The position numbers and the translations under genes were made by a program. Positions 33,255 to 62,387 of a DNA stretch of 64,000 bases are shown piece after piece (position 1 is the stretch's first letter; every line of letters begins with the position of its first letter). The notes beneath the pieces were generated by a model, which was given only the letters and a program-made list of their open reading frames with translations, did no database searches and was not told the origin of the DNA. Origin of the DNA: Pseudomonadota bacterium (GTDB lineage Bacteria; Desulfobacterota; Desulfobacteria; Desulfobacterales; RPRI01); the NCBI GenBank assembly GCA_018817425.1, contig JAHITX010000117.1, positions 1 through 64,000 on the forward strand, read 5' to 3'.

Positions 33255-33276
33255 AAATACCCCATTTTTTGTGCAA

Positions 33277-45213: not shown

Positions 45214-45283
45214 TCCAGGGAATAAGTTAATGTGAGGTTTATGATAACAATATTTTACATATAATTATTGAACATAAGTTTGA

Positions 45284-48600: not shown

Positions 48601-49549
48601 TGTTCATTCGCGTTCCAGCAACGTGATAGGCATCATCGATACCGATGATTTTTTCATGTATCTGGGAGGCATGTCACTTGCTGTGAAGAATGTGAAAGGC
48701 GAAGCGCCTGATACTATGGTTACAATGCATCGTAAAAAAGATGAATTGATGGTTGAAGATGTGGCCAAAACAATCGGCAGGGAGCTTAGAACACGCTATT
48801 TAAATCCCCAGTGGATTGAAGGGATGAAAAAGGACAATTATGCCGGGGCCCGCCAGATGGCTGATTTTGCGGAAAACCTTTGGGGTTGGCAGGTTACGGT
48901 ACGTGATGCTGTGGATGCTGCCAAGTGGAAGCAGGTATATGATGTTTATGTGGAAGATAAGTATGGCATGGAGCTGAAAGAGTTTTTTGATAAGCAAAAT
49001 CCATGGGCATATCAATCAATGACTGCCCGCATGCTGGAAGCGGTTCGCAAGGACTACTGGCAGGCTGATGAAAAAATCACCCGCAAGCTGGCCGCCGAAT
49101 ATGCGATCAATGTAGTCGAAAAAGGTGTGGCCTGCTGCGACCATACCTGCAACAATCCCATGCTTAATCAGATGGTAGTAAATATTATTTCTTTGCCTGG
49201 TGTATTGTCGCCGGAGATAGTGGAAAAATTCAAGCTGGCAATAGAGAAAATGGCTGCCAAATCTTTAGATAAGCAGACCGAGGATAGAAAAGAACTGTTG
49301 GCCGAACTTAGTGCCGGGCCGGGAACGAATGAGAAAAACACCGGACAGGAAGAAAAGAAAAAGCCTGTGGATGAGAGTAGTAGTAAAATCCAGAAAGATG
49401 CAAAAAAAGTTGAGGGCTATAAGATGCAGGATATGGATACTAAAGATGAAACTACGGATTTGAGTTCATCGGGCATCCAATGGGCGGCATCACTGTTTGT
49501 CCTGTTATTGATTGGATTGTTTGTTTGGGGATCGCGGCGCAGACGATAG
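45620..49549 (+). CDS. Exported, membrane-anchored CobN-type chelatase (CobN copy 2)
   Basis: A 1309-aa CobN-family protein with two features the cytosolic copies lack. One is a signal peptide (MISIRVYNARVWLIAACCFF, cleaved near NAQN). The other is a C-terminal membrane span with a basic tail (WAASLFVLLLIGLFVWGSRR, about residues 1287-1306). The body should therefore lie in the periplasm, tethered to the inner membrane. The family block is HLGTHATYEWLPGK (about 555-568). A Cys motif GVACCDHTCNNP places C1172, C1173, H1175 and C1177 near the end of the catalytic body. A Lys/Glu-rich spacer precedes the anchor. It has no periplasmic ATP, so classic ChlID-driven chelation is unlikely; dechelation or a proton-motive-force-driven reaction is an alternative. 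Confidence 0.9.
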   Translation: MISIRVYNARVWLIAACCFFVMFSKANAQNISILEVDINSYQVNQAVKKLNLPKSIQTRFFTFEDLKADKTAKNFITGSSIVFVNVMMPELANYMADEKLIAGRAVYALNRAGDPEALAKKGYLFDSKIIDYYHNKSIANMVNMVRMAVHRHIDPKIKFEEVKMVPELCIHHPDAPYKFSETVAYKSWYKYRSGYKLDNPWVGIMFYGTTLKEGQVEAADDLIKKLEASGFNVLACFGPVQMVLNQYLKPVDGKAPVDLLLAFTMKFSSCINDEIRAALVNLNVPVFNVIRPYGETIEEWRKSEVGLGPMETVWAVSTPEFSSAIEPTVLVGKKEIIDPETGRSLYVYETIDETIQLLIPRLKKWAALQRMHNPEKKIAIIYYNHSQGKQNIAAAYLNVFRSLQVIMNRMQEEGYNIKHTDKLTEDGLKEVILKSGRNIGSWAPGELDAMLAAGDAEQVSLTEYKKWFDRLPEEFKKPVLAQWGPPEKSTIMTKNGNMVFPMVKFGNIVLLPEPARGWTDDPMKLYHDTTLYPHHQYIAAYLWLSEKFKADAMVHLGTHATYEWLPGKQAGLAPSDPPEIMTGSIPNIYPYIVDDIGEGIEAKRRGRGVILDHLTPPMKEADLYHEYSQLQDLYQKYEIAKTGGSETAPEYMKKMKKLVEETGIATDLAITDMNEDAMKKINLYLHEIDNNSLPYGLHTYGKAYDPDAASETVELIMKQNPKADINQVQRDLDASPVREMDNFIRALRGEYVPAGEGNDPLRNLAAITTGKNFYGFSPAKVPSKAAWEIGKRAAVQMIEEKLKKDGKYPQKVGVVLWATETTRNEGVNESTILYLMGVEPVWDATERVTDSCVIPGRQLGRPRIDVLINPSGLYRDMFPNKLIFLDEAVQKAMAQTDIENFLAKNKAVIKNALIASGMNEKEAEEQSRFRIFTEKPGSYGNGVEEMVGASGLWESDKAISDIYMNRTQFAVGRGKWAVPVKEAFAENLRGVDIAVHSRSSNVIGIIDTDDFFMYLGGMSLAVKNVKGEAPDTMVTMHRKKDELMVEDVAKTIGRELRTRYLNPQWIEGMKKDNYAGARQMADFAENLWGWQVTVRDAVDAAKWKQVYDVYVEDKYGMELKEFFDKQNPWAYQSMTARMLEAVRKDYWQADEKITRKLAAEYAINVVEKGVACCDHTCNNPMLNQMVVNIISLPGVLSPEIVEKFKLAIEKMAAKSLDKQTEDRKELLAELSAGPGTNEKNTGQEEKKKPVDESSSKIQKDAKKVEGYKMQDMDTKDETTDLSSSGIQWAASLFVLLLIGLFVWGSRRRR

Positions 49550-49606: not shown

Positions 49607-50488
49607 ATGAGAAGATTAAAATTGTACAGTTTGATGACGGCTTTTATATTTTTTGTGCTTTCAGGTTATGCTTATGCTGCAAGCGGTCATGCTCGCACTG
49701 ATTCGAAGAAGGTAGGGATTCTTTTGGTTGCTTTTGGATCAAGCGAAGCATCAGCCCAGGTTTCATTTCAAAACATCGATAAAAAGGTTAAGGCCACCTA
49801 TCCCGATATCCCGGTTTACTGGGCATATACGTCTCATATCATCCGGGATAAACTTGCTAAGCAAGGGAAATTGCTGGATTCACCCGAAGTTGCCTTAGCG
49901 AAGATGATAGACGAAAAATTTACTCATGTGGCTGTTCAATCCCTGCACACCATCGGCGGGGCAGAATATCACGATTTAAGAAGAACTGTGGAAGCATTCA
50001 AATTGATGGGAAGATTCCAAAGAATTGTGCTGGGATATCCTCTTTTGGCAAGCCAGAATGATATGCAAAGGACGGTTAATGCCATAATAAAATACATACC
50101 CAAAAACAGGAAAAAAGACGAAGCCGTTGTTTTAATGGGACACGGCACCCACCATCCATCTAATGCCTTCTATGCAGCATTGATGTTCCAGTTACAGCTT
50201 AGAGATCCTAATATATTCGTCGGCACAGTGGAAGGTTATCCAGAAATCGGTCTGATAAAAGAATTGCTGCTTCAAAAAAAGATAAAAATAGCATATTTGA
50301 TACCCTTTATGTCGGTAGCCGGAGATCATGCCAAGAACGACATGGCAGGAGATGAAGCAGATTCTTGGAAATCTATTTTAACAATAAACGGTATTACATG
50401 TGTTCCGGTTCTTAAAGGTACTGCGGAATATGATGATTTCGTAGATATCTGGGTTGACCATATTGGTAAACCACTTAGTCATTTTTAA
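49607..50488 (+). CDS. cbiK: Exported CbiK-type sirohydrochlorin cobaltochelatase
   Basis: A 293-aa CbiK with a signal peptide (MRRLKLYSLMTAFIFFVLSG, cleaved near AYAAS), as in the periplasmic CbiK of Desulfovibrio vulgaris. Metal-handling residues expected for CbiK are present: GHGTHHP (H169), VEGYPE (E199) and AGDHAKNDMAG (H231). CbiK inserts Co2+ (or Fe2+) into sirohydrochlorin without ATP. In the periplasm it cannot serve the cytosolic pathway directly, so a role in metal or tetrapyrrole handling outside the inner membrane is implied. It follows the exported CobN by 57 bases with Shine-Dalgarno AAAGGAG. Confidence 0.92.
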   Translation: MRRLKLYSLMTAFIFFVLSGYAYAASGHARTDSKKVGILLVAFGSSEASAQVSFQNIDKKVKATYPDIPVYWAYTSHIIRDKLAKQGKLLDSPEVALAKMIDEKFTHVAVQSLHTIGGAEYHDLRRTVEAFKLMGRFQRIVLGYPLLASQNDMQRTVNAIIKYIPKNRKKDEAVVLMGHGTHHPSNAFYAALMFQLQLRDPNIFVGTVEGYPEIGLIKELLLQKKIKIAYLIPFMSVAGDHAKNDMAGDEADSWKSILTINGITCVPVLKGTAEYDDFVDIWVDHIGKPLSHF

Positions 50489-50576
50489 TTGATGCAAGTA
50501 ATAGCAATTATAATAATCTATTCAAAATAAAGAATAAATTATTTGAAAATGGTTTATAAGTAAATTGAAAATTATC

Positions 50577-50606
50577 TTGACATAGCTCTTTATAAACTCG
50601 TATTAA
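50577..50606 (+). promoter_or_regulatory. Promoter of riboswitch 6
   Basis: TTGACA at 50577-50582 and TATTAA at 50601-50606 with an 18-base spacer, 13 bases before the aptamer. Confidence 0.7.
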
Positions 50607-50619
50607 AGAAAACAATAGT

Positions 50620-50880
50620 ATTCAGGTGCTCATAATGAGCAAATAGGGAACCCCGTGAAATTCGGGGGCGGGCCCGCCGCTGTAATCGGGGACTAAAGCT
50701 GCTAAATGCCACTGTCACGCATAATTATGATGGGAAGGCGCAGCTGGAAGAATGATCCGAGAGTCAGAAGACCTGCCTGAATATTTGTGTGTCTTCCGAG
50801 GACAAGAGGGCGCATCAAGGATCATGAGGATAAAAAAGGGATTCCCCGGATCGATTTAATCGGTCCGGGGATTTTTATTT
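50620..50880 (+). promoter_or_regulatory. Cobalamin riboswitch 6 with terminator
   Basis: Aptamer at 50620-50782: ATTCAGGTGC, GCTC/GAGC tip, AATAGGGAACCCC, GGGCCCGCCGCTGTAATCGGGG, GCCACTG, ATGGGAAGGC, CAGAAGACCTGCC and CCTGAAT. The terminator hairpin at 50843-50870 is followed by a T-run. About 180 bases of AT-rich leader without a recognisable gene separate it from the receptor gene. It heads the receptor-CobN-ExbB-like operon that ends with the 57-aa gene. Confidence 0.93.
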
Positions 50881-51059
50881 TATTCTGCGATAGTAATATT
50901 TATATATAATATTAACAATGTCTTATATGGCATAGCTTGAAATCCTGCATTATGCGCATGGCGAATTTATACTTTACAAATTACCGTCATATTAAAAAGT
51001 ATTATATTCGCCTTAACCTGATATTGATTTGTGAATAGAGTTATCATGAAAGGAGTAAA

Positions 51060-53189
51060 GTGGTGCAGCTAAATAATCTTAAATTATCGGGTTATAACAA
51101 AGTATTTATAATATGGTTAATCACTGTTTTAATATTTATTTCGGTCAAACAGTTATGTGCTGAAGAAACCGCAAGCCACGTTATGGATGAAATCGTTGTC
51201 ACATCAACCAATAAAAGTAAAATGATTGATATACCGGCTAGTATTTCAGTTATAACGGCTGAGGAACTATCAGAGATGGGTGCGAAAAATATTGTCGAGG
51301 CAATCAGCAAGATTCCGGGAGTCGATAATGTCAGCGCAAAAGACTCCGCTATATCCATCCGGGGTACCAAGAGTTCTATGGCCGGGGGACCCGTTATCCT
51401 CATTGATGGCGTGCCCCAGAAGATTGGTGATTACCGGTATGATGAATTCAGCTTTATCCCTGTTTCACAGATCGAAAGAATCGAGGTTCTGCGCTCTGCC
51501 GGGATTGCCTATGGGCCTGGAGCTGCCAGGGGTGTGATTAATGTTATCACTAAAAAAGGCAAAACCGGCGTCTTTAACGGTGATGTGTCGGTTTCCTACG
51601 GATCATGGAATACTCATAATGAATATGCGGGATTTTCGGGAAGCGTAAATCGGTGGGACTATTTTGTTAATACCGCAAATTACAGTACTGACGGTTATGA
51701 AGAAGAGGAAGAAGATCGTATATCCGCCCTTGTAAAGGTGGGTTACAATCTATCGGATCAAACCCGTATCGGCATCCGGGGAAATTATATCACACATGAT
51801 CAGATCACCGTTGACGGGTTTTCAAAATTCGAATGGCAGAAGGAAAATTATCGCCGGGACATTCATTTCCCCAGGAGCGAAACCGATCCGACCCTGATCT
51901 GGCACAACTCAAAGGATCAGGACATCGCAACTGCAGCTTTTGAGTTTTCCCACAAGGGCAACGGCTTGTTTATAGATTCCAACATATCCTGGACAGGTTA
52001 TGAGGAAGATTACCGCAGATCCTATGCTTTGTATACTAGCCCCACCAGCGTCTATCATGACGACAAGGAACAGGATACCTATACGGCAACACTTTCGGGG
52101 GGGTATGATTTTAACATAGGGGCAATCAGTTACACACCCTCCATTGGCTTGAACTTTGAGGATATTGAGTTTTCTAATTTTCGAATCTACCCCTATGATC
52201 CGGCAAAAGATACGGACAGTTCCATCTTTGATTTTGAAGAACGGCAATATGGCGTGTTCTGGGATAATGACTTGGTTCTTAGTGAACACTGGGGACTCAA
52301 GATCGGTGGCCGCGTCGACCGGGTTGAAATTGATTTTAAGGACCGGGTTCCGAACAAGGTGGATGAGAGCAATACAATGTATAGCTGGCTGATAGCCCCG
52401 TCCTATCGTTTCAGCGAGAAGGCTACTGTCTATATTTCAGCGGGAAGGAATTACTGGTTTCCCACGCCCCGGTATTATGCCTGGGCCGCGGAAAGCGGCG
52501 GAGATCTTAACCGGCCTGAGGATCTGAAACCGGAAAAGTCACTGACTTATGAAATCGGCTACCGTAATATGCTACATAAAACAATAAACATCAATCTGAC
52601 TACCTATTTCACAGAATATAATGATAAATTCTCCACTGTTTATAATCCCCCAGCCACAACTTCCTATGGGCAAAAGAATGTGGGGGAGGCCGAGGCAAGA
52701 GGCATTGAACTTGAGGTGGACGGACGGTTATGCCGCTACTTCGGCTATCGGCTTGCCGGAACGTATCAGAAGATTGAATGGAAATCAGGTCAGATGGTGG
52801 TATATGACCACCCGTCCAATGATAGGGTCTTTAGGGATCTGGACGGCTATCGGGTAGATCATGTTCCTGAATACAGCGGTTTGGTGGGGCTTGATTTTTA
52901 TCCCTTTGAAGGGCTCAAGCTTGGTGTAGATGTAAATTATACAGGATCTCAATATGTAGATTATTTAAACCGAATCAAATATTCATCAAAGACCACTTGT
53001 GATGCCAATATTTCCTACAAAGTGAATAACTGGAAAATCTGGGTTCTTGGCAAAAACATCTTTGACCGAAAGATAGAATATGTTTCCAACACGACCGGAA
53101 GGCTTACCGGAGCAGATGGGGAGCCCAGAAACTATTATTATATACAGGATGGTGCTTATGTTGAAGCCGGAATCAGTGTGGGTTTTTAA
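51060..53189 (+). CDS. TonB-dependent receptor of the exported-CobN operon
   Basis: A 709-aa outer-membrane receptor with signal sequence (NKVFIIWLITVLIFISVKQL, cleaved near CAEET) and TonB box DEIVVTSTN (about residue 42). The plug contains ISIRGTKSSMAGGPVILIDG and LRSAGIAYGPGAARGVINVIT, and the barrel ends VEAGISVGF. The start is GTG 51060 or the next codon GTG 51063, which has better spacing to GGAG (51053-51056). A tiny out-of-frame ORF (MKGVKWCS, ATG at about 51046) overlaps the start. The CobN gene follows after 21 bases, the receptor-chelatase order seen in hmuRS. Confidence 0.88.
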   Translation: MVQLNNLKLSGYNKVFIIWLITVLIFISVKQLCAEETASHVMDEIVVTSTNKSKMIDIPASISVITAEELSEMGAKNIVEAISKIPGVDNVSAKDSAISIRGTKSSMAGGPVILIDGVPQKIGDYRYDEFSFIPVSQIERIEVLRSAGIAYGPGAARGVINVITKKGKTGVFNGDVSVSYGSWNTHNEYAGFSGSVNRWDYFVNTANYSTDGYEEEEEDRISALVKVGYNLSDQTRIGIRGNYITHDQITVDGFSKFEWQKENYRRDIHFPRSETDPTLIWHNSKDQDIATAAFEFSHKGNGLFIDSNISWTGYEEDYRRSYALYTSPTSVYHDDKEQDTYTATLSGGYDFNIGAISYTPSIGLNFEDIEFSNFRIYPYDPAKDTDSSIFDFEERQYGVFWDNDLVLSEHWGLKIGGRVDRVEIDFKDRVPNKVDESNTMYSWLIAPSYRFSEKATVYISAGRNYWFPTPRYYAWAAESGGDLNRPEDLKPEKSLTYEIGYRNMLHKTININLTTYFTEYNDKFSTVYNPPATTSYGQKNVGEAEARGIELEVDGRLCRYFGYRLAGTYQKIEWKSGQMVVYDHPSNDRVFRDLDGYRVDHVPEYSGLVGLDFYPFEGLKLGVDVNYTGSQYVDYLNRIKYSSKTTCDANISYKVNNWKIWVLGKNIFDRKIEYVSNTTGRLTGADGEPRNYYYIQDGAYVEAGISVGF

Positions 53190-53210
53190 TGAGTATATAC
53201 TTGAATTCTT

Positions 53211-56200
53211 ATGAATTTAATTATGAAAATTAGGAAAAATATAATTATTCTGTCGGCAATACTGGTAATTGCTATTATATGTTCTGCTGATACGGCTAAT
53301 GCCGCGCGGTATGCGATAGGCTTTTTTGTAGGTGATTCTGACGCATATACTTGCTTGCAGGCAGTTAAGATGATCAATCTTCCGGAAGTGGAGATCGGAA
53401 TTTTTACTCAGGAGGACATTGATAAAAACCTGACCACAGACTTTATTAAGCGCATGGATATTGCCATAGTTGATATTATGCCTCGTCATCTTGGTAAATG
53501 GCTCATTTCCAAAAAAGCAGCAATCAATCCGGGCGTAAGGATCTATGCAGTTCGAATGTCCGGTCAGCTTAAGGATTATCTTGATGCAGGTTTTATCATG
53601 GATCAGGATGTCCGAAACTATTATAAGTTTACTTCTTCCGCCAATCTTAAAAACCTGATTCTTTTCTTATCCCAAAAGGATCTGAAATTGGCCACCCGGT
53701 TTGTCCCTGCGGTTATTCCGCCTGAAAACGGGCTCTATCATCCTGATGCTCCTGAGATATTTAAGTCCCTTGAAGATTATATTAAATGGTACCGTCAAAG
53801 CGGTCACTACCAGCCGGGCAAGTTGTGGGATCTGACTATAATATTTCCTACTTTTCCTGTTGATAATAAGCAGGCTCCTGTTAATGCCCTGATACGGGCA
53901 TATGAAAAAAACGGCATTAATACTATAACGCTCATGCGGGCCATGAAAGATTGGGATTTGGCCGTTGACCGTCTTATTTCCGCCGAACCGCTAAAAACTC
54001 ATCTTGGTTCCATTACCGGATTTACTTTCAAGTTCAGTTCCAGATTATCGGCACACACAATGGATGTGCTGAAAAAAGCCGATGTACCGGTATTTAGTCC
54101 TATTTATCTTTTCTTTTCAACCGGAGAAGAATGGATGGCATCCGAACAAGGCGTTACTCCCGCAGAAATATCACTTCAATTTGGCGTACCGGAGCTTTCC
54201 GGGTTGATAGAGCCGACCGTGATGGGAGTTAAAGAACGTGTGGCAACAGAATCCGGGAAAGTTAATGCCTACCATTACATACCGGTAACATCTCTGGTGG
54301 AAAAACAAGCCAGGCGCACGGCTTTGTGGCACAGGTTGAAACAAAAAGCAAATAAGGACAAGAAGGTAGTACTGATATACTATAACCATGGTGGCGGCAA
54401 GCAAAATATCGGGGCCAGCTATCTTAATGTATTTAATAGTATCCGGGAAATCATCAGTAATATGAAACAGGCCGGATATACTGTTGATGGCGATCTGTCG
54501 GAAGATAAAATTAAAGATCTTTTGATCAGATCGGGACGCAATATAGGTTCATGGGCACCGGATGAACTGGATAAAATGATACGGGAAGGTGAAGTGGAGT
54601 TTATTCCGTTTTTGCAGTATAAGAAATGGTTAAAAGATGTTGATAAAACATTTGCCGCAAATATTGAAAAAGATTGGGGCAGTCCCGATGATTCCGATAT
54701 CATGACCCGCAACGGCAAATTTATAATTCCCTGTATCAAGCTGGGCAATTTGATTTTAGCCCCTCAGCCTTCCAGAGGATGGAGCGATGACCCTGAGAAA
54801 CTTTTTCATAGCACTGTTTTATATCCGCATCATCAATATACGGCTTTTTATTTATGGCTTCAAAATAAAATTAAACCCGATGTCATGATAAACCTGGGTA
54901 CCCATGGCACACATGAGTGGCTGCCAGGAAAACAGGCCGGGCTCTCAGCTTCATGTCCGCCTGAGGTTCTTATCGGTGATATTCCCAGTTTGTATCCATA
55001 TATTGTTGATGATGTCGGGGAGGGTATCCAGGCCAAAAGACGGGGCCGGGGCGTGATTATCGATCATGCAACACCACCTTTTAAAAAAGGAGGTGACTAT
55101 GGAGAATACTCCAAACTGGCAGCTTTGATCAGTGAATATGAATCATCTTCTTCCGAAAAGATTCGACAGGCCAGAATGGTTCGTATTTGGGATATGGCGG
55201 TAAAACTGGGTATCGATAAAGATCTGGATATCCGAAGTCTTGATGATGATGGCATGGAAATAATCGATCATTATATCCTTGAACTTAAAACTGAAATGAT
55301 ACCTTACGGTTTGCACACTTTCGGTCTTTCTCCAACAGGAGAAGGCCTTGAAGAAACTGCAAAGGCTATTGCTTTAAAAGGTGATCAGGCTGCGGATTTC
55401 TATAAATCTCTGCTTTTGGAATGCGGTCCTTCTGAAAGAAACAGCCTTATCAGGGGTTTGCGAGGCGGCTATATTCCACCGGCATCAGGAAATGATCCGA
55501 TACGGAACCCGGAAAGTCTTCCCACCGGTAAAAACTTCTATAGTTTTGATCCGGATAAGGTTCCATCTAAAGAAGCCTGGGAGAACGGCAAAAAAGCGGC
55601 GGATCAATTGATTGACTCATACCGGAAAAAAAATAACGGAAAATATCCTGAGCAGATAGGAATAATACTCTGGTCCGTTGAAACTATAAGAGATGAGGGA
55701 ATCAACGTAGCCACAGCCTTGCGGCTATTGGGTATGAAACCGGTCTGGGATCAATGTGATAAGGTAACGGGTGTTGAGCCGGTTTTGGGAAAGCAGTTGA
55801 AAAGGCCACGGATCGATGTATTGCTTCAAATGTCGGGTCTTTTCAGAGATACGTTTCCCACGGCAGGGCTTTTGCTCGATAATGCTGTTAAACAGGCGGC
55901 GACTCTTAGTGATGTGGAAAATTTTGTTAAAAACCATACGGTCCAAATACGTAAACAACTGATAGAAAAGGGGTACACGCTAAAAGAGGCTGAGAAACTG
56001 TCCACCGTGCGGCTTTTCAGCGCAGAACCTGGGGCTTACGGAACCAAGGTAGATAACATGACAGGCTCAAGCGGTATGTGGGATAATGATAGTGTAGTTG
56101 CCGAACAGGGTTTTATCAACATGGTTTCATACGGGTATTCATCGGATATCTGGGGTAAGCCGCTTAAGGATACATACAGACAAAACCTGAAAAAAGTGGA

Positions 56201-57161
56201 TGCCACCGTTCACTCTATTTCTTCGAATCTTTATGGCTCAATGGATAATGATGATATGTTTCAATACTTAGGCGGACTTTCCATGGCTGTGCGAAAGGAA
56301 TCGGGAAAAGATCCTGAGGTGTATGTATCCATGCAGAAAACCATGGGGCAGGGACATATAGAGCCGATTTCCGCAACCATCGGCCGGGAGTTGCGCAGCC
56401 GGTACCTGAATCCCAAATGGATTGAGGGGATGAAAAAGGAAAAATATGCAGGCGCCAGGGCAATGGCGGATTTTCTGGAAAATATGTGGGGCTGGCAGGT
56501 TACCACTCCCAAAGCTATTGACAAGACAAAATGGGAACAGACGTACGAGGTTTATGTAGAAGACAAATATGGTCAGGATATTAAGGAGTTCTTCAACCGT
56601 GAAAATCCCTGGGCCTATCAATCCATGACCGCCCGTATGCTTGAAGCAGCAAGAAAAGGTTATTGGAAAGCGGATGAAAAAATCAAAAAGAAACTGGCAG
56701 CAGAATATGCGGTAAATGTAGTCGAAAAGGGCGTGGCTTGCTGCGATCATACCTGCAATAATCCAATGCTTAACCAAATGGTAGTACAGATAATATCTTT
56801 GCCGGGGGTGCTGTCTCCTGAAATAGTGGAAAAATTCAAGCTGGCTGTGGAACAGGCCGCAGGCAAAGCACTGGATCAGCAGGTCAAAGACCGCACAATA
56901 TTGATTGCCGAAATGCAAAATATATCACCGAAAGCATCTGCCGATTCGTCGTCGGATGTTGCCGTTAACAAGAAAGAGTCCGCAACTAAAACCGCTCATG
57001 GAGAAAAGCCTGTAACCGTTGAAGGGTATAAAATGGAGGATATGGATAAAGCAGATGATACAACGGATCTTACATCTTCCGGCATTCAATGGGCGGCATC
57101 ATTGTTTATTCTTCTGATCATAGTGCTGTTTGTCTGGGGATCGGGAAGAAAACACAAATAA
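53211..57161 (+). CDS. Exported, membrane-anchored CobN-type chelatase (CobN copy 4, HmuS-like)
   Basis: A 1316-aa paralogue of the 45620 protein. It has a signal peptide (MKIRKNIIILSAILVIAIIC, cleaved near ANAAR) after a possible earlier ATG, and a C-terminal span with basic end (WAASLFILLIIVLFVWGSGR). The family block NLGTHGTHEWLPGK is at about 560-573. GVACCDHTCNNP gives C1177, C1178, H1180 and C1182. The last 250 residues are nearly the same as in copy 2. Downstream genes are a multi-span protein, an ExbB-like channel and a DUF2149-like protein, the order of hmuSTUV. HmuS of Bacteroidetes is a CobN-type protein linked to anaerobic removal of iron from haem; by analogy this one may remove or exchange a metal, with cobalt the leading candidate because of riboswitch control. 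Confidence 0.9.
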   Translation: MNLIMKIRKNIIILSAILVIAIICSADTANAARYAIGFFVGDSDAYTCLQAVKMINLPEVEIGIFTQEDIDKNLTTDFIKRMDIAIVDIMPRHLGKWLISKKAAINPGVRIYAVRMSGQLKDYLDAGFIMDQDVRNYYKFTSSANLKNLILFLSQKDLKLATRFVPAVIPPENGLYHPDAPEIFKSLEDYIKWYRQSGHYQPGKLWDLTIIFPTFPVDNKQAPVNALIRAYEKNGINTITLMRAMKDWDLAVDRLISAEPLKTHLGSITGFTFKFSSRLSAHTMDVLKKADVPVFSPIYLFFSTGEEWMASEQGVTPAEISLQFGVPELSGLIEPTVMGVKERVATESGKVNAYHYIPVTSLVEKQARRTALWHRLKQKANKDKKVVLIYYNHGGGKQNIGASYLNVFNSIREIISNMKQAGYTVDGDLSEDKIKDLLIRSGRNIGSWAPDELDKMIREGEVEFIPFLQYKKWLKDVDKTFAANIEKDWGSPDDSDIMTRNGKFIIPCIKLGNLILAPQPSRGWSDDPEKLFHSTVLYPHHQYTAFYLWLQNKIKPDVMINLGTHGTHEWLPGKQAGLSASCPPEVLIGDIPSLYPYIVDDVGEGIQAKRRGRGVIIDHATPPFKKGGDYGEYSKLAALISEYESSSSEKIRQARMVRIWDMAVKLGIDKDLDIRSLDDDGMEIIDHYILELKTEMIPYGLHTFGLSPTGEGLEETAKAIALKGDQAADFYKSLLLECGPSERNSLIRGLRGGYIPPASGNDPIRNPESLPTGKNFYSFDPDKVPSKEAWENGKKAADQLIDSYRKKNNGKYPEQIGIILWSVETIRDEGINVATALRLLGMKPVWDQCDKVTGVEPVLGKQLKRPRIDVLLQMSGLFRDTFPTAGLLLDNAVKQAATLSDVENFVKNHTVQIRKQLIEKGYTLKEAEKLSTVRLFSAEPGAYGTKVDNMTGSSGMWDNDSVVAEQGFINMVSYGYSSDIWGKPLKDTYRQNLKKVDATVHSISSNLYGSMDNDDMFQYLGGLSMAVRKESGKDPEVYVSMQKTMGQGHIEPISATIGRELRSRYLNPKWIEGMKKEKYAGARAMADFLENMWGWQVTTPKAIDKTKWEQTYEVYVEDKYGQDIKEFFNRENPWAYQSMTARMLEAARKGYWKADEKIKKKLAAEYAVNVVEKGVACCDHTCNNPMLNQMVVQIISLPGVLSPEIVEKFKLAVEQAAGKALDQQVKDRTILIAEMQNISPKASADSSSDVAVNKKESATKTAHGEKPVTVEGYKMEDMDKADDTTDLTSSGIQWAASLFILLIIVLFVWGSGRKHK

Positions 57162-57173
57162 AGGAGCAGGGAA

Positions 57174-57932
57174 ATGATTTATAAGAGTTTGATTCTGGGA
57201 GTATTGTTTGGCATCGGGATATTTGCGATAAAAGGAGGCATAGGTTTATCCTATTATATGTTTCAAAAGAATTCTGTACGCAATAAAGTGGGAATGAGTT
57301 TGCTGTATGCTCTCACATATCTTTTGCTTTTTACGGTATCGGCTGTAATTTTGGAAAAAATAGATTTAATCAGGCATTTTGCGGCCATTCAAAACTTTGT
57401 TCAATCAGGGATGCTTATCCATCTTATTATGGCCGGTATGCTTATCGTATGGGGTGTAGTGCTACTGAAAAAAAACAGCGTTTCTAATAACAGCAGCAAA
57501 GGATGGCTATTGCTGGCCCTTCCTTGTCCTGTTTGTGCCACAGTGATTTTTTTTTCTCTTGGTTTTCTTATAACCTTTTTCCCTGAGTTTCCGATGAGAG
57601 TTGTTCTTTTATTGTATCTTGCCTTTATCGTAATTAATTTAATTAGTGTGCTGGTTATGGTTTATTTAAAAAAACGAAGTGATTCACAGGCTGAAAGCTT
57701 TCTTGGCGGGGCTATGATTCTAATTGCAGCCTATTTTATTCTTTCGGTAACAATCATGCCGCAATTTGCGGATGTAGATAAAATTTACCGGTTAGCTATG
57801 TATCAATCAGATTCGGCAGTTGGTCAGACAGGTCAAATCTTTCTTTACTTAATATTTATTACAGTACTTTTTCTTGGAGGCTTTGCTGCAACTACAGTAA
57901 AAACCAAAAGAATAAATGGGAGAATATCATGA
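57174..57932 (+). CDS. Multi-span membrane protein, DUF2162/HmuT-like
   Basis: A 252-aa inner-membrane protein with about seven spans. It begins MIYKSLILGVLFGIGIFAIK after Shine-Dalgarno AAAGGAG. A Cys pair in LALPCPVCATVIFFS (about residues 118-132) sits at a membrane edge and could bind a metal or haem. Proteins of this type (DUF2162, from memory) occur between CobN-like and ExbB-like genes in Bacteroidetes hmu operons and in methanogens. It is 12 bases after the CobN gene and overlaps the next gene by 4 bases. Probably a channel or scaffold of the chelatase complex. Confidence 0.75.
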   Translation: MIYKSLILGVLFGIGIFAIKGGIGLSYYMFQKNSVRNKVGMSLLYALTYLLLFTVSAVILEKIDLIRHFAAIQNFVQSGMLIHLIMAGMLIVWGVVLLKKNSVSNNSSKGWLLLALPCPVCATVIFFSLGFLITFFPEFPMRVVLLLYLAFIVINLISVLVMVYLKKRSDSQAESFLGGAMILIAAYFILSVTIMPQFADVDKIYRLAMYQSDSAVGQTGQIFLYLIFITVLFLGGFAATTVKTKRINGRIS

Positions 57933-58567
57933 TTAATCCGGGTGCTTTGGTAAAAACCTTTATATACCTTATATCTTCTTCCCTGCTATATCCTGTACTT
58001 ATCTTGCTGATGTTACTGACAGTATATGTAATTATCTATGCAGGAACTTTTTTTGCGGAATGGATTGAGCGGCTACGACTAAAAAGGTGCTCCCCGCATG
58101 ATTTTCCTGCTATTATAAAAACAGGTAATACTTCATCTTTTATTTCTCATCGTGTGAATCAATTTGTTAAAACATTAAACAAATTGAATGTAGAAGGAAA
58201 TGATACGGAAATAGCAATAGAAAACTTTTTGCAGGATACAACATTGAATGTCTGGAAATCTATGGACAGGCTGAGAATAATGGTAAGAGTGGCTCCGGCG
58301 CTGGGATTGATAGGAACCCTTATTCCAATGGGGACAGGACTGGCGGCATTAGGGCAGGGAGATATGACGAAGCTTTCCGCTGATCTTGTTATTGCTTTTA
58401 CAACAACGGTAGTAGGAATGGCTATTGGCACAGCAGCATTTTTCTTTTACACGGTAAAGCATAGATGGGTTGAAGAAGATATAAAGAATATGGAGCTTGC
58501 AACCGAGATACTTACGCAACAAACGGAGACAGTAAATTATGAAATACTTCAAAAAGCGCCGAGTTAA
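57929..58567 (+). CDS. MotA/TolQ/ExbB-like proton channel of the chelatase module (HmuU-like)
   Basis: A 212-aa protein with three spans and the proton-channel block VAPALGLIGTLIPMGTGL (about residues 114-131), followed by ADLVIAFTTTVVGMAIGTAAFF. It is separate from the ExbB of the TonB operon and from the TtpC-like protein. Its only obvious ExbD-like partner is the small DUF2149-like protein encoded by the overlapping next gene. It probably uses the proton-motive force to drive the membrane-anchored CobN, since the periplasm lacks ATP. Confidence 0.87.
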   Translation: MINPGALVKTFIYLISSSLLYPVLILLMLLTVYVIIYAGTFFAEWIERLRLKRCSPHDFPAIIKTGNTSSFISHRVNQFVKTLNKLNVEGNDTEIAIENFLQDTTLNVWKSMDRLRIMVRVAPALGLIGTLIPMGTGLAALGQGDMTKLSADLVIAFTTTVVGMAIGTAAFFFYTVKHRWVEEDIKNMELATEILTQQTETVNYEILQKAPS

Positions 58568-58898
58568 TGTAGTTGGTAAGGGTTTGGGAACTCCTGCTTT
58601 TTCAGATGATGATCCCATGACAGGTGTTGCCAATCTGTTTGATATCGGGCTTGTATTCATAGTTGGTCTTATTATGGTTCTTTTCAGTATGTATCATCTT
58701 CAGGATTTATTCAGCGAAAAATCCGAGTTAACAATATTAAAAAAAAACACCGTAAATCAGGAGATGGAAATAATCACTAAAAAAGGCAAAACAATCAAAG
58801 CTATGAAAGTAAGTAAAGAAAAGGTGGAGGGCAAAGGGGAAAGGCTGGGTATTGCATACAAACTGGAAGACGGCTCTATGGTTTATGTGCCGGAGTAG
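58539..58898 (+). CDS. DUF2149-like ExbD-type partner protein (HmuV-like)
   Basis: A 119-aa protein with one membrane span near residues 30-50 (NLFDIGLVFIVGLIMVLFSM, with an Asp inside the span as in ExbD) and a periplasmic region ending in a beta-rich segment (GERLGIAYKLEDGSMVYVPE). It overlaps the ExbB-like gene by 29 bases. The size, single span with Asp and position next to ExbB-like support an ExbD-like role in proton use. The family assignment to DUF2149 is from memory. Confidence 0.8.
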   Translation: MKYFKKRRVNVVGKGLGTPAFSDDDPMTGVANLFDIGLVFIVGLIMVLFSMYHLQDLFSEKSELTILKKNTVNQEMEIITKKGKTIKAMKVSKEKVEGKGERLGIAYKLEDGSMVYVPE

Positions 58899-58933
58899 AA
58901 AGTAAAGTCATAATAAAACAAAAGGAGAAAACC

Positions 58934-59107
58934 ATGTATTTGTATTGGCGCATACAGCAGGATTTGAGTTGTCTCGGGGAGGTTATACGATTTATTGATC
59001 CTTCTTTTATCAGATGCCACAAAATTTGGCGAAAGCGCAATATGGCAGGATTGGCCCTTGCGGAAGATTATGAACCGAAAGAGTTTCTGTGGACATATTT
59101 AAATTGA
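58934..59107 (+). CDS. 57-aa protein, paralogue of the one at 3436
   Basis: Begins MYLYWRIQQDLSCLGEVIRF and ends KEFLWTYLN. It aligns without gaps to the product of 3436-3609, with invariant C13 and C28, DPSFIRC and ALAED. Shine-Dalgarno AAAGGAG lies six bases upstream. It is 35 bases after the DUF2149-like gene, the last gene of the operon, and 22 bases before the TTGACA of the next promoter. There is no signal peptide or membrane span, so it should be cytosolic. The abundance of Trp and Tyr and two fixed Cys suggests a small metal- or tetrapyrrole-binding protein, or a subunit of a complex. No known family is recognised. Confidence 0.85.
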   Translation: MYLYWRIQQDLSCLGEVIRFIDPSFIRCHKIWRKRNMAGLALAEDYEPKEFLWTYLN

Positions 59108-59175: not shown

Positions 59176-59506
59176 ATCCAGGTGCTTTAATAGCATAAGG
59201 CGGTATGTGTTAAATACCACCCTACATTATATATCGTAGGGCGGGGTTTTACAACCCGCCGGAACAGGGAACCCCGTGTAATTCGGGGGCGGGCCCGCCG
59301 CTGTAATCGGGGACAAAGGCTGTAAGATACCACTGTTACGAATAATCGTGATGGGAAGGTGCAGCCGGATGAATGATCCGAGAGTCAGAAGACCTGCCTG
59401 GATGTTTGCGTGTTTTTTACGGACAAGAGAGCACTGCAAGGATCATGAGGAAAAAAATGGGATTCCCCGGATTGATTAACATCGGTCCGGGGATTTTTTT
59501 TTTGTT
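59176..59506 (+). promoter_or_regulatory. Cobalamin riboswitch 7 with terminator
   Basis: The aptamer (59176-59407) has ATCCAGGTGC, AACAGGGAACCCC, GGGCCCGCCGCTGTAATCGGGG, ACCACTG, ATGGGAAGG and CAGAAGACCTGCC. It is closed by CCTGGAT: the C in the 5' strand is matched by a G in the 3' strand, a compensatory change relative to ATTCAGG/CCTGAAT of the others, which supports the P1 stem. A terminator at 59464-59493 is followed by more than ten T. It carries the palindromic repeat at 59199-59260. It controls cobalt import and corrin synthesis genes. Confidence 0.93.
59199..59260 (+). repeat. Triple-hairpin palindromic repeat inside riboswitch 7
   Basis: Same site and same order of stems as at 1478 and 42889: GGCGGTAT/ATACCACC, CCCTAC/GTAGGG, GGCGGGG/CCCGCC. 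It is more diverged in sequence but keeps the hairpins, partly through paired changes. Confidence 0.7.
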
Positions 59507-59566: not shown

Positions 59567-60364
59567 ATGAAGAGAATTGTATTTAAAATAGCTTACATAG
59601 CGTTAAAAAATGTTAAAAATCATTTTATTATATTATCAGCGTTTATCTTTTTGATGTTTACTGACAACGCTTATGCAATGCATATATCCGAAGGAATATT
59701 ACCTTTCAACTGGGCGGTTTTATGGTTTATTGTCGCTGCGCCATTTGTAGCTTATGGCTTATATAAGTTAAAAAAGCTTTCAAGTCTTGATCCTTCCTTC
59801 AAGCCTCTTGTCGGTCTTGTAGCAGCAGTTGTTTTTATCATCTCATGCATGCCCATGCCTGTTCCAACCGCCGGCACATGTTCACATCCATGCGGAACCG
59901 GAATCTCTGCAATATTACTTGGTCCTGGATTAAGTGTTCTTGTAGCTTCTGTTGCTCTGTTTATTCAGGCTCTTTTTCTTGCACATGGCGGATTAAGCAC
60001 ATTGGGTGCAAATATAGTATCTATGGGCATAATGGGATCTTTTGCCGGATATATTACCTTTAAAACCTTGCGCGGATTTAATACAAATCTTTTTGCGGCA
60101 GGGTTTGCAGCAGGATTAATAGCAGACTGGGCCACATATCTTTCCACTTCGGTTGAACTGGCCTCAGGCATAATGGGCGGCTCGCCTTTTATGCCGCTTT
60201 TCACAAAAATAATTATAGCTTTTGTTCCTACTCAGCTTCCTCTTGGAATACTTGAAGGAGCCATCACCGGCGGAATGGTCGTATTGCTGTACAAGAAAAG
60301 GCCAGATTTGCTCATAAAGATGAAAGTAATTAAACCGGTGGGAGGTGTAGCCAATGAAGCCTGA
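59567..60364 (+). CDS. cbiM: CbiM cobalt ECF transporter substrate-binding membrane protein
   Basis: A 265-aa core S-component of the CbiMNQO cobalt importer. The mature protein begins with MHISEGILP (Met38, His39): in this family the N-terminal Met-His coordinates Co2+. A 37-residue signal-like extension ending DNAYA must be removed to free it. The motif PMPVPTAGTCSHPCGTGISA and about seven spans follow. It is the first gene after riboswitch 7 with Shine-Dalgarno CAGGAG. It overlaps cbiN by 11 bases. Confidence 0.95.
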   Translation: MKRIVFKIAYIALKNVKNHFIILSAFIFLMFTDNAYAMHISEGILPFNWAVLWFIVAAPFVAYGLYKLKKLSSLDPSFKPLVGLVAAVVFIISCMPMPVPTAGTCSHPCGTGISAILLGPGLSVLVASVALFIQALFLAHGGLSTLGANIVSMGIMGSFAGYITFKTLRGFNTNLFAAGFAAGLIADWATYLSTSVELASGIMGGSPFMPLFTKIIIAFVPTQLPLGILEGAITGGMVVLLYKKRPDLLIKMKVIKPVGGVANEA

Positions 60365-60665
60365 AAAAAGTAAAATTATGGTCAAAATGGTTATGATCTT
60401 TGTTTTATCTGTAATTGTAGTTTGTTGCTTTCAGCCGTTTGTTTATAGTTCGGAAAAGTGGCCGGGCGTTGATGAATCCGTAGTGGAGAAATACGCAAAA
60501 GAACATGGCCGGGAATCATGCGATCCTCTTATAAATACGGATCAGGGAGACCTGCTTTTATTTGTATTTCTTCTGGCAGGTACAATAGGCGGATTTATCG
60601 GCGGATATTACTGGAGGATGCTTATTGTTCCACCAGGTGACCGGAAGGAAAGCCCGAGTATTTAG
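60354..60665 (+). CDS. cbiN: CbiN cobalt transporter accessory subunit
   Basis: A 103-aa protein with two spans (about residues 8-28 and 65-88) and a periplasmic loop with WPGVDESVVEKYAKEHGRES, usual for CbiN. It helps load Co2+ into CbiM. The gene overlaps cbiM by 11 bases. A 133-base gap follows before cbiQ that holds degenerate CTTGAACCC repeats (60718-60757) but no gene. Confidence 0.9.
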   Translation: MKPEKSKIMVKMVMIFVLSVIVVCCFQPFVYSSEKWPGVDESVVEKYAKEHGRESCDPLINTDQGDLLLFVFLLAGTIGGFIGGYYWRMLIVPPGDRKESPSI

Positions 60666-60798
60666 GCGAAGATTTCAGTTAAATATTATATATAAACAAG
60701 ATTTCACTGGAACCCTGGAACCCTTGAACCTTGAACCCATAAACACTTGAACCCTCGTAATGAAGGACTAATAAAAAGTACTTTAGATAAAAACCAAT

Positions 60799-61554
60799 AT
60801 GCATTTATTTGACGAATATTATAAAAATAGTAATCTTCTCACAAGAGTTGATGTTAGAATCAAACTTATATTAACGTTTTCACTGCTGATTATGGTTTTA
60901 TGCAGCAATGGAATAACATTTCCTTTATTTGTAGCCGTGCTTTCCATAGTGCTTTGCAGGATTATTGATATACCTTCACGCGTTATGCTTATCAGATTTT
61001 CAGAGCCCCTTTTTATAGCCGCTATGCTTCTTTTTTTAAAATTCTTTTTTACAGGCCACGAACCTTTGTTTTGTGTAAGTATCGCAGGGATTGACATTAT
61101 CGGGTACAAAGACGGCCTGATGGAAGGCATAAGGCTTTCAAGCCGCATTATAGGAGCTGTTTCGCTTATTGCACTTGCCGGATTTTCTTCTCCTTTTACA
61201 GATATCATTACAGGTCTTTCATGGTTTAAAATTCCTTCGCTGTTCTTAGAGCTATTGATGATTACCTACAGATATATTTTTGTTCTTTTTGAAGATGCAG
61301 GTGTTATATATAATGCACAAAAAAACAGACTCGGTTATTCCAGTATCCGATTAGGCTTAAGTTCTTTCGGAACGCTTTCGGGTGAACTTATAATAAGAGC
61401 TTTTGACCGCAGCCAGATAACGACCCAGGCAATGTTTCAAAGAGGATACACCGGGAATATGCCTGTTGGCCATAGTGCTTCTTTTAAAATAAATGAAGTT
61501 GCGATAGCATTAGTTATAATTGTTGCAGCCGGAGTGCTATGGAAAATAATGTAA
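60799..61554 (+). CDS. cbiQ: CbiQ transmembrane (T) component
   Basis: A 251-aa ECF T-component with five or six spans and the C-terminal coupling segment (AFDRSQITTQAMFQRGYTG, near residues 195-215) that contacts the ATPase. It begins MHLFDEYYKNSNLLTRVDVR, as in other CbiQ. No clear Shine-Dalgarno precedes the ATG. The cbiO gene starts inside its last 16 bases. Confidence 0.93.
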   Translation: MHLFDEYYKNSNLLTRVDVRIKLILTFSLLIMVLCSNGITFPLFVAVLSIVLCRIIDIPSRVMLIRFSEPLFIAAMLLFLKFFFTGHEPLFCVSIAGIDIIGYKDGLMEGIRLSSRIIGAVSLIALAGFSSPFTDIITGLSWFKIPSLFLELLMITYRYIFVLFEDAGVIYNAQKNRLGYSSIRLGLSSFGTLSGELIIRAFDRSQITTQAMFQRGYTGNMPVGHSASFKINEVAIALVIIVAAGVLWKIM

Positions 61555-62387
61555 GACTTTGCGTAAAAGACGTATCTTTAATATATCCTGATGGAACAAA
61601 AGCTCTTTTAGACATCAGCATTGAAATCAAAAAAGGAGAGTTTGCAGCAGTACTTGGTTCCAATGGATCAGGAAAAACAACGCTGCTTAAAATCATGGAT
61701 GGGCTCCTGAAAGGCTCTGAAGGCACAGTACTTCTTGATGGTAAAAATATCAGAGAGCTTAGCCCTAAAATGATATATCAAAAGATAGGCCTTGTTTTTC
61801 AAAACCCGGATGATCAGCTTTTTGCTGCAACCCTGTTTGATGATATAGCGTTTGGCCCGATAAATATGGGGTTAAATGTTTCTGAAGTTAAGGATCGTGT
61901 TATTTGTGCATTAAAAGATGTTGAACTTGATGGTCTTGAGAAGAAATCCATTCATAACTTAAGTTATGGTCAGAAAAAAAGAGCATGTATAGCAGGGCTT
62001 CTTGCCATGGGCCATGAAATATTGCTGCTTGACGAACCGACGGCAGGCCTTGACCCGATGGGCGAATACAAGATGATGAGTCTTTTAAAAAAACTTAACC
62101 TGGAAAACGGCGTTACAATCGTAATGGCAACACACAGCGTGGATCTGGTACCGATATTTTTATCCAAACTTTATATATTAAGCTGTGGCCGGATTGTAAG
62201 AAGTGGCGTACCCGAAGAGGTGTTTACGGCTCCCATGGAAATGTCGGAAGTAAAGCTCAGATTGCCCATGATTGCTGAGCTTGTTTATAAATTAAAGAAT
62301 GAAGACGGCTTGCAGTTTGAGCGTATTCCGCTGACAATCGGCGAAGCCAGAAGAGATATAATAAGAGCAATGGAAAGCAGATCGTAA
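61539..62387 (+). CDS. cbiO: CbiO cobalt transporter ATPase
   Basis: A 282-aa ECF-type ATPase: Walker A GSNGSGKTT (about 39-47), Q-loop FQNPDDQLFA, signature LSYGQKKR, Walker B ILLLDEP and H-loop THS. It energises CbiMNQ. Length and motifs are standard for CbiO. Confidence 0.95.
   Translation: MENNVRLCVKDVSLIYPDGTKALLDISIEIKKGEFAAVLGSNGSGKTTLLKIMDGLLKGSEGTVLLDGKNIRELSPKMIYQKIGLVFQNPDDQLFAATLFDDIAFGPINMGLNVSEVKDRVICALKDVELDGLEKKSIHNLSYGQKKRACIAGLLAMGHEILLLDEPTAGLDPMGEYKMMSLLKKLNLENGVTIVMATHSVDLVPIFLSKLYILSCGRIVRSGVPEEVFTAPMEMSEVKLRLPMIAELVYKLKNEDGLQFERIPLTIGEARRDIIRAMESRS

Follow-up and report, generated by a model that had tools for sequence, protein, structure and literature searches.

A cobalamin-riboswitch operon with an exported CobN and a putative membrane motor suggests corrinoid processing in the periplasm

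Introduction

Cytosolic class I chelatases depend on a pair of ATP-driven AAA+ proteins. In Bacteroidota, the hmuYRSTUV operon includes a gene for HmuS, an exported and membrane-anchored homologue of the chelatase subunit CobN, and the activity reported for HmuS is the removal of iron from haem (PMC12583661). Here we describe an operon with a similar gene order that lies behind a cobalamin (vitamin B12) riboswitch in a bacterium from the Desulfobacterota (class Desulfobacteria, lineage RPRI01; GenBank assembly GCA_018817425.1). We analyzed the first 64,000 nucleotides of contig JAHITX010000117.1, and we will refer to this whole stretch as the window. The operon encodes a TonB-dependent receptor, an exported CobN (CobN 53211, named for the start of its gene), and three membrane proteins from the DUF2162, ExbB and DUF2149 families. 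We propose that these proteins might form a machine that acts on corrinoids in the periplasm.

Exported forms of CobN have been described before. The BtuS family of Rodionov 2003, as cited by Rocha 2019, is a third type of CobN that is exported and anchored, and it was predicted to be involved in the salvage of metalloporphyrins (PMC6460266). CobN 53211 has the hydropathy expected of this family, and by their description, BtuS1 and BtuS2 from Bacteroides fragilis are exported and anchored as well; where that paper takes up these two proteins, the tests it reports are for haem only, and neither a motor for CobN nor a fusion to corrinoid domains is discussed (PMC6460266). A 2026 paper about Porphyromonas gingivalis places further HmuS homologues of some Bacteroidota in other clades, which suggests distinct functions (PMC13227078). 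On the cobalamin plasmid of Geobacter lovleyi, a CobN occurs with TonB genes; the section that describes them does not assign its exact role or mention the DUF genes (PMC3403914). Finally, Mesle 2023 reported that B. fragilis has hmu-like operons that lack hmuY and lie behind a cobalamin riboswitch, and suggested a role in cobalamin metabolism (PMC10100974), so the original prediction for our locus, which was made from the sequence alone, overstated the case when it called such a system new. The bare idea is already in print. In our searches of the open-licence literature in PMC, no listed paper was described as dealing with a dedicated motor for CobN or a corrinoid demetallase, and we did not come across the spread across phyla, the fusion protein, or the split in active-site residues that we report below.

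Results

An hmu-like operon behind a cobalamin riboswitch

The features of the operon are listed in Table 1. The riboswitch, the receptor, the exported and anchored CobN, a multi-span protein, an ExbB-like channel, a DUF2149 protein, and a 57-amino-acid gene, tightly packed together, had all been predicted, and all were confirmed; the multi-span protein belongs to DUF2162 (PF09930). Two of the five junctions between genes (51060-59107) are overlaps, and the other three are gaps of 12, 21, or 35 bases. None of the 25 NCBIfam models among the listed matches to the receptor scored above its own cut-off.

The riboswitch is one of seven cobalamin riboswitches in the window. The hairpin that follows it is the only terminator-like site within 50400-51300 (shuffled sequences have 0.4 on average), and it is likely the expression platform, which would turn transcription off when B12 is bound. 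A very similar hairpin (59464-59493) follows a different cobalamin riboswitch, which hints that regulatory cassettes were duplicated.

The order of receptor, CobN, membrane protein, ExbB, and DUF2149 is the same as in the annotated hmu operons of Prevotella nigrescens and Bacteroides finegoldii. (In the hmu operon of Aureibacter, the HmuY gene follows the receptor.) The operon in the window also resembles hmuYRSTUV (PMC12583661) in having an exported, anchored CobN homologue and in the sides of the CobN and ExbB trees on which its proteins fall (see below). It differs in being behind a B12 riboswitch, in lacking an hmuY between the switch and the receptor, and in having DUF2162 at the position of HmuT. 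Specifically, there is no plus-strand open reading frame of at least 50 amino acids between the riboswitch and the receptor (the rest of the genome was not searched for hmuY), and a profile of DUF2162 did not match HmuT (probability 3.5, with three HmuT sequences).

Table 1. The operon and its neighbours in the window
Feature	Position	Strand	Evidence
Cobalamin riboswitch aptamer (RF00174)	50607-50794	+	117.6 bits vs. gathering cut-off of 31.5; E = 7.7e-29; model positions 1-189 of 189
Terminator-like hairpin, 13 pairs, then a T-rich tail	50843-50871	+	49 bases after the aptamer
TonB-dependent outer-membrane receptor, GTG start	51060-53189	+	PF00593, 5e-38; PF07715, 2.8e-22
Exported CobN-family class I chelatase subunit with C-terminal membrane anchor (CobN 53211)	53211-57161	+	PF02514, E = 0; export and anchor from hydropathy only
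DUF2162 multi-span membrane protein	57174-57932	+	PF09930, 2.5e-43
ExbB/TolQ/MotA-family channel protein, CobN-linked branch	57929-58567	+	PF01618, 3.3e-13; ExbB tree
DUF2149 protein, one transmembrane helix and a small periplasmic part	58539-58898	+	PF09919, 2.1e-30
57-amino-acid protein, final gene ahead of the next riboswitch	58934-59107	+	Open reading frame; Shine-Dalgarno; relatives
Cobalamin riboswitch of the sister operon	45272-45476	+	RF00174
Second exported, anchored CobN; same large branch, other subclade	45620-49549	+	Pfam; tree
CbiK-family chelatase with a signal-like N-terminus, behind the second exported CobN	49607-50488	+	PF06180, 3.6e-71; signal by eye
Next cobalamin riboswitch	59227-59415	+	RF00174
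Genes that read as a CbiMNQO-type cobalt importer, behind riboswitch 59227-59415	59567-62387		Named by eye from the sequence

The module recurs in diverse organisms

We used DUF2149 to find similar loci. It scored above the cut-off in 42 of 395 genomes from the phylum, and a pattern scan of a collection of species turned up 307 relatives, from which we took the best 80. These 80 loci and 40 from the phylum scan make 120, or 107 non-redundant loci once 13 duplicates are dropped. We considered the 65 of these 107 loci that have at least 4.8 kilobases (kb) on both sides ("well-flanked"), and unless stated otherwise we counted genes on the same strand.

In the well-flanked loci, CobN was present within 6.5 kb in 64 of 65 cases and an ExbB-like gene in all 65. 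Because this set recurs, chance association is excluded. DUF2162 was present in 54 of 65 and the TonB receptor in 52 of 65, and a cobalamin riboswitch was found up to 9.5 kb upstream in 48 of the 65, with the first recognised gene less than 700 bases away in 42 of those 48. (Riboswitches in these relatives were called with a model whose 11 sequences include 7 from the window; when Rfam was run on 15 fetched loci, it found a switch in 8.) A long CbiZ was found in 28 of 65 loci and CbiK in 18 of 65.

The known partners of cytosolic CobN are the ATP-driven CobS/CobT or ChlI/ChlD (PMC8620254). No ChlI/ChlD was found within 9 kb in any of the 65 loci (CobS/CobT were not searched for by name); the window has a ChlI/ChlD pair elsewhere, at 15215-18258. 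With refined models, TonB was found in 9 of 65 loci and ExbD in 7 of 65 (13 and 11 if either strand is allowed). We prefer these to the counts from our earlier single-sequence queries (4 for TonB and 7 for ExbD). Some loci, such as the one from Trichlorobacter lovleyi, also include an ordinary full set of ExbB, ExbD, and TonB.

Among the eight Brocadia-type loci with a full CobN, a riboswitch precedes the operon in seven, and it is a tandem in six. (In L124, L125, L129, L132, L133, and L137, which are Brocadia-type, tandem cobalamin riboswitches are followed by the receptor, CobN, ExbB, and DUF2149.) The genome that we started with has a single match to DUF2149 and a single match to DUF2162; its six matches to PF02514 correspond to four CobN-family genes, all inside the window. 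In a sample of Bacteroidota, PF09919 was found in just 1 of 198 genomes, far below what the printed counts of hmu operons suggest, and this count says little, as many of the sampled genomes have two or three CobN/BchH-type genes and read as green sulphur bacteria.

Three other loci show the range of arrangements. On a Comamonadaceae plasmid (L214, 8139-13550), a cobalamin riboswitch (40.2 bits) lies directly before ExbB-DUF2149-CobN, with no adjoining receptor. A Lentisphaeria genome (G398), which is not from the Bacteroidota, has three HmuS-type CobN (L159, L164, and L170) and another exported CobN beside DUF2149 (L154). And on a plasmid of Runella slithyformis (L209, 5335-13369), a receptor, a weakly NicO-like protein, ExbB, DUF2149, and CobN lie within a hyp (hydrogenase maturation) operon. 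This suggests a nickel version of the module, although the transporter's matches to NicO and DsbD_2 are both below the cut-off. An Azospirillum locus with nikR nearby was considered as a second nickel version and dropped, as its DUF2149 gene has a strong cobalamin riboswitch behind it, so Runella alone stands for nickel.

CobN 53211 is on the exported side of the family and lacks the haem-specific residues of HmuS

From 152 matches to CobN, we removed 31 that were redundant or truncated at the 3' end; adding four proteins from the window to the remaining 121 gave 125 sequences. (The label "Myxococcota" on one of the groups represented is doubtful.) The main exported group is a residual class: it comprises the CobN from DUF2149 loci except for the Brocadia-type and nine odd ones ("other exported"), plus L208, and not every member has a riboswitch. 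The six HmuS-type references are three plasmid records and three genes from one Lentisphaeria genome.

CobN 53211 contains PF02514 and the catalytic histidine, which places it in the class I chelatase superfamily. It has hydrophobic segments at both ends, unlike the CobN of de novo synthesis, which is cytosolic and free of an anchor. A C-terminal hydrophobic helix was found in 82 of the 84 CobN from DUF2149 loci and in all 6 HmuS-type proteins, versus none of 11 cytosolic CobN (9 from elsewhere and 2 from the window) and none of 22 BchH-like proteins. CobN 53211 scores 615.1 bits against TIGR02257, whose cut-off is 822.05, and it is below the cut-offs of the remaining NCBIfam models for CobN as well. 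Its best match among solved structures is HmuS (506.7 bits, versus 466.6 bits for the structure of CobN).

In a tree of 63 of the 125 sequences (a quick method with LG+G4), a branch with support of 99 splits the exported forms from cytosolic CobN and the BchH-like proteins. The six HmuS-type proteins form a clade within the exported side (support of 100), and both exported CobN from the window are in a branch of 27 sequences (support of 100), in different subclades. (B. finegoldii HmuS is the Bacteroides sequence in the tree and stands in for BtuS1 and BtuS2 of B. fragilis.) In other words, CobN 53211 does not group with de novo CobN, in agreement with the original prediction. Compared to cytosolic CobN, it shares the family, the catalytic histidine, and the Asp and Gln of the cavity, and it differs in being exported, anchored, on the other side of the tree, and in loci where no ChlI/ChlD was recognised.

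His565 of CobN 53211, in the sequence NLGTHG, corresponds to His538 of HmuS (motif HFG(T/A)HG). This histidine is common to nearly the whole superfamily, and it is retained in 67 of 67 proteins of the main exported group and in 8 of 8 Brocadia-type proteins. The second motif of HmuS (LSLDHxxEFMGG, with His1209 and Glu1212) is absent: CobN 53211 has SMDNDDMFQYLGG, with Asp1015 and Gln1018. In the aligned structures, position 1209 is His in HmuS and ChlH and Asp in CobN and CobN 53211, while position 1212 is Glu in HmuS, Asp in ChlH, and Gln in CobN and CobN 53211. Across our sequences, position 1209 is Asp in the main exported group (65/67), the Brocadia-type proteins (8/8), the other exported proteins (8/9), and cytosolic CobN (8/9), and it is His in the HmuS-type (6/6) and BchH-like (21/22) proteins. 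Because some of the sequences were grouped by sequence, these counts illustrate the split and do not prove it: three of the six HmuS-type proteins (from Lentisphaeria), the BchH-like proteins, and part of the cytosolic CobN are not independent, and we rely on solved structures and three annotated hmu operons as named anchors.

Other features of HmuS are missing as well. The haem ligand His254 is replaced by Phe273 in CobN 53211, and it is conserved in 0 of 67 of the main exported group (one has a gap) and in 5 of 6 HmuS-type proteins. The other haem ligand, Met79, is kept, as Met90 in CobN 53211 and in 64 of 67 of the main group (and in 4 of 6 HmuS-type proteins). Residues 721-728 of CobN 53211 face residues 698-920 of HmuS, which leaves no room for the methionine-rich insertion. 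Conversely, CobN 53211 has CCxHTC at 1177-1182, in its tail. Both exported CobN from the window have this motif, and its frequency is 59/67 in the main group, 5/8 in the Brocadia-type proteins, and 1/9 in the other exported proteins; it is absent from all 6 HmuS-type, 11 cytosolic, and 22 BchH-like proteins. The original prediction had described the operon as a counterpart of hmuRSTUV. This holds in that the module is hmuRSTUV-like and has a corrinoid setting, and it fails for membership in the HmuS family: judged by the tested features, CobN 53211 does not belong with HmuS, yet it likely works in an HmuS-like way.

The membrane proteins: a putative motor and a putative metal path

ExbB proteins have conserved threonines, and ExbD has an aspartate in its membrane segment. 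In the CobN-linked ExbB-like proteins, Thr130 is conserved in 87 of 87 and Thr158-160 in 79 to 83 of 87. Similarly, Asp35 in the membrane segment of DUF2149 is conserved in 94 of 95 and resembles the transmembrane aspartate of ExbD/TolR. DUF2149 thus looks ExbD-like in pattern, while no match to ExbD (PF02472) was found at E = 0.01. The TonB-ExbB-ExbD and MotAB stators share with the module the ExbB family, the conserved threonines, and a partner with a transmembrane aspartate; the ExbB-like protein differs from them in having a branch of its own, a partner (DUF2149) that is not provably ExbD, and a TonB gene that seldom adjoins.

A tree of 60 ExbB proteins splits the CobN-linked proteins, including HmuU, from 23 ordinary ExbB (support of 100), so the ExbB-like gene does not group with ordinary TonB motors. 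Several branches are long, and single placements are unsure. (The tree includes a random 28 of 86 CobN-linked relatives as well as named ones, and the ordinary ExbB are the best matches to the window's ExbB at 39552, whose TonB neighbours were not checked one by one.) The 0 of 65 for ChlI/ChlD, the conserved threonines, and the membrane aspartate lead us to infer that the ExbB-like protein and DUF2149 might be a stator motor.

DUF2162 may provide a path for metal or for electrons. Its conserved residues are Lys20, His83, and Cys118-Pro-x-Cys121, of which the CPxC and His83 are nearly invariant. Its structure was predicted with confidence (predicted local distance difference test, pLDDT, of 90.9), and Foldseek found no match at E = 0.001; VIA-align gave Z scores against transporters of up to 9.4, which is within the chance range for helical bundles. 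A looser form of the tail motif of CobN (CxxHxC) is present in 60 of 63 proteins with DUF2162 in the locus, versus 10 of 24 without it (these counts ignore kinship). From these sequence patterns, a metal relay from the tail of CobN to DUF2162 is a fair guess, and relatedness alone could also give this pattern.

Corrinoid genes and a plausible need for cobalt

Relatives of the module differ from hmuYRSTUV in having BtuF-CbiZ neighbours: we compared three of the separate long CbiZ proteins to Pfam, and all three are BtuF-CbiZ (PF01497 and PF01955), with a BtuF-like binding domain fused to CbiZ, a cobinamide amidohydrolase. In L152 (1287-7361), a single frame of 2,024 amino acids spans a BtuF-like, a CbiZ, and a CobN domain; no hydrophobic segment separates the three, and there is a helix at the C-terminus. 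Part of its N-terminal region looks frame-shifted, so we treat this fusion as provisional. (The CobN of L106 was also considered as a fusion and was not counted, as its frame runs on into receptor sequence.) On the T. lovleyi plasmid (pSZ77/pGLOV01), whose CobN had been noted in print (PMC3403914), the module, in the order receptor-DUF2162-ExbB-DUF2149-CobN, lies behind two riboswitches and inside a set of cobalamin genes. The riboswitch, the BtuF-CbiZ neighbours, and the corrin-type Asp in the cavity are three lines of evidence, all read from sequence, that make a strong contextual case for a corrinoid as the probable substrate.

Do organisms with the module need the corrin ring, or the cobalt? 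We tested 45 carriers, namely 39 of the 42 genomes from the phylum scan (G043, G072, and G136 were left out because their matches were cut or interrupted) and 6 genomes from other groups. CbiC was present in 40 of the 45, including 31 of the 32 that are known to be of good quality, and CbiD was present in 39 of the 45, including 30 of those 32. Across the phylum, 177 of 325 good-quality genomes have CbiC; the comparison of 31/32 carriers to 146/293 remaining phylum genomes gives P = 5.6e-8 (Fisher exact test, which ignores kinship). Because the carriers mostly build corrin themselves, cobalt and not the ring is the plausible need.

The genome also has its own BtuFCD-like set (31986-35444). The ABC ATPase of this set (31986-33254, minus strand) has about 170 extra residues at its C-terminus.

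Neighbouring genes

The window is rich in corrinoid genes (Table 1). The second exported CobN may share the genome's single set of DUF2149 and DUF2162. Another CobN-family protein, the fourth in the window (4186-7938, minus strand), lies beside a TonB receptor and CobO; its catalytic histidine is replaced by glutamate (HFGTEG) and its second motif is altered, so judging by its residues, it is probably a non-catalytic relative.

The 57-amino-acid protein at the end of the operon (MYLYWRIQQDL...LGE...) belongs to a conserved family, and the copy here has no match in Pfam. Its gene has a good Shine-Dalgarno sequence, and 32 of the class's 192 genomes have relatives (including its own genome, where there are three copies: 58934-59107 on the plus strand, 3439-3609 on the minus, and a third on a different contig). 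In several genomes, these genes lie near B12 genes or stand shortly after cobalamin riboswitches; the riboswitch is 125-337 bases upstream in 4 of 16 neighbourhoods. No DUF2162, ExbB-like, or DUF2149 gene was recognised in those 16 neighbourhoods, some of which are short, and among the module loci that we searched, just the window and L106 have the 57-amino-acid gene. It is a real gene from a separate B12-linked family of small proteins, and the idea that it is part of a CobN complex is not supported.

Discussion

A proposed mechanism

The anatomy of the operon, its riboswitch, its recurrence, the separate branches for CobN and ExbB, the corrinoid neighbours, and the residue signature are all observed, and we consider them established. 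Given these, the module is probably a periplasmic machine that is coupled to a motor and acts on corrinoids. Our fuller proposal, which we put at slightly short of an even chance, is that the machine is driven by the proton-motive force and most likely releases or exchanges the cobalt of corrinoids. (The rise in the TonB count from 4 to 9 of 65 changed neither of these judgements.)

In this proposal, when adenosylcobalamin is low, transcription would pass the terminator of the riboswitch, so that the operon is repressed by B12. The TonB receptor would import corrinoids to the periplasm, and the corrin would be bound in the class I chelatase cavity of the exported CobN, which would be held by its C-terminal helix. 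The ExbB-like protein and DUF2149 would be a proton-driven stator motor that acts on CobN. This would replace the ATP-driven motor of the ChlI/ChlD type, because the periplasm has no ATP. Cobalt would then be released or exchanged, much as HmuS takes iron from haem, and the freed Co(II) might travel via the CCxHTC tail to DUF2162 or to the neighbouring cobalt importer, and on to the cytosol. What we infer here is that the motor acts on CobN, what reaction takes place and in which direction it runs, and where the metal goes.

Several findings weigh against this proposal. As for the chemistry, corrins with cobalt are reported to resist the removal of cobalt unless the ring is destroyed (PMC6771967), and the axial His1209 of HmuS is Asp in CobN 53211, which is the residue of the metal-inserting CobN. 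In B. fragilis, a btuS1 btuS2 double mutant remained able to free protoporphyrin from haem, which led the authors of that study to conclude that BtuS has little or no dechelatase activity (PMC6460266). HmuS was reported to be active with NADH after heterologous expression (PMC12583661), so the motor seems to be unneeded in vitro. The alignment of DUF2149 to ExbD by hhalign has a probability of 2.75 and covers the transmembrane helix only, so homology to ExbD is not established, and the structural model of DUF2149 is poor (pLDDT of 68) and too weak for a structure search.

The genomic evidence has exceptions as well. No DUF2162 was found in the eight Brocadia-type loci with a full CobN, though five of those CobN keep the cysteine motif; the core of the module is therefore CobN, the ExbB-like protein, and DUF2149. 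No upstream riboswitch was found in 17 of the 65 well-flanked loci, and 12 of 65 have neither a riboswitch nor CbiZ. Since the loci were chosen via DUF2149, they are uninformative about how often an exported CobN occurs without the motor. And neither CbiC nor CbiD was found in 4 of the 45 carriers (G148, which is 81% complete; G338, 78%; G395; and G399), where the salvage of cobalt would make little sense.

Alternative explanations

The alternative that fares best, although we consider it unlikely, is that CobN is a large periplasmic receptor for corrinoids that performs no metal chemistry, and that the proton-driven ExbB/DUF2149/DUF2162 detaches the corrinoid from CobN or transports it across the inner membrane, either replacing BtuFCD or working beside it. 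This would fit with the BtuF-CbiZ neighbours, which have binding and remodelling domains, and the BtuF-CbiZ-CobN frame reads like a chain for binding and remodelling. There is also a parallel in P. gingivalis, where HmuS is suggested to give haem to HmuTUV (PMC13227078), and the protoporphyrin that is still freed by the B. fragilis mutants (PMC6460266) points the same way. But a mere binder would not need the catalytic histidine, which is kept in every protein of the main exported and Brocadia-type groups, and the genome already has a BtuFCD-like set.

It is distinctly less probable that the module inserts cobalt into scavenged corrins that lack it or have the wrong metal, as cytosolic CobN does with ATP. 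The Asp and Gln of the active site are the same as in the solved CobN, cobalt-free corrinoids are known from some purple sulfur bacteria (PMC6771967), and insertion into acquired cobalamin has been speculated for Chlorobaculum (PMC8620254). On the other hand, HmuS shares the exported side of the tree and its reported reaction is the removal of metal, most carriers build corrin themselves and have no need for a ring from outside, and in our judgement, cobalt-free corrins are probably rare outside of cells.

We rate as very unlikely the idea that the ExbB-like protein and DUF2149 power the operon's TonB receptor, independently of CobN. This was proposed in print for HmuU and HmuV (Mesle 2023, PMC10100974), and most well-flanked loci do have a receptor; also, TonB is a divergent family, so our counts of TonB may still be low. 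Still, TonB and ExbD are infrequent at these loci on either strand, while CobN is nearly always present; the CobN-linked ExbB are on a separate branch; and several loci, including that of T. lovleyi, have a second, full set of ExbB, ExbD, and TonB. Furthermore, the genome of Methanosarcina acetivorans (a control) has matches for DUF2149, DUF2162, and CobN, and this organism has no outer membrane.

The least plausible alternative, which we regard as improbable, is that a rearrangement moved a haem dechelatase operon under a B12 switch: the gene order is that of hmuRSTUV and HmuS is the top match among solved structures, but His254 and His1209 are replaced by Phe273 and Asp1015, and the riboswitch and the CbiZ neighbours recur across phyla.

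Implications

To return to the motor-coupled release or exchange of cobalt, a still broader version is possible, though we doubt it: exported CobN, including HmuS, would be a class of chelatases in which a stator motor of ExbB-like protein and DUF2149 replaces the AAA+ ATPase, and the B12-controlled branch would take cobalt from intact corrinoids on behalf of organisms that build corrin. The carriers of the module include sulphate reducers, anammox-type bacteria, and other organisms, and their habitats are places of corrinoid trade. If the proposal is true, then one logic, a class I chelatase with a membrane motor for its ATPase, would account for both the dechelation of haem and the processing of corrinoids in anaerobes. 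It makes the role of HmuU and HmuV testable (the printed guess is that they energise TonB), as well as the demetallation or remetallation of corrins outside the cytosol. If confirmed, a corrinoid demetallase would in addition serve as a chemical tool.

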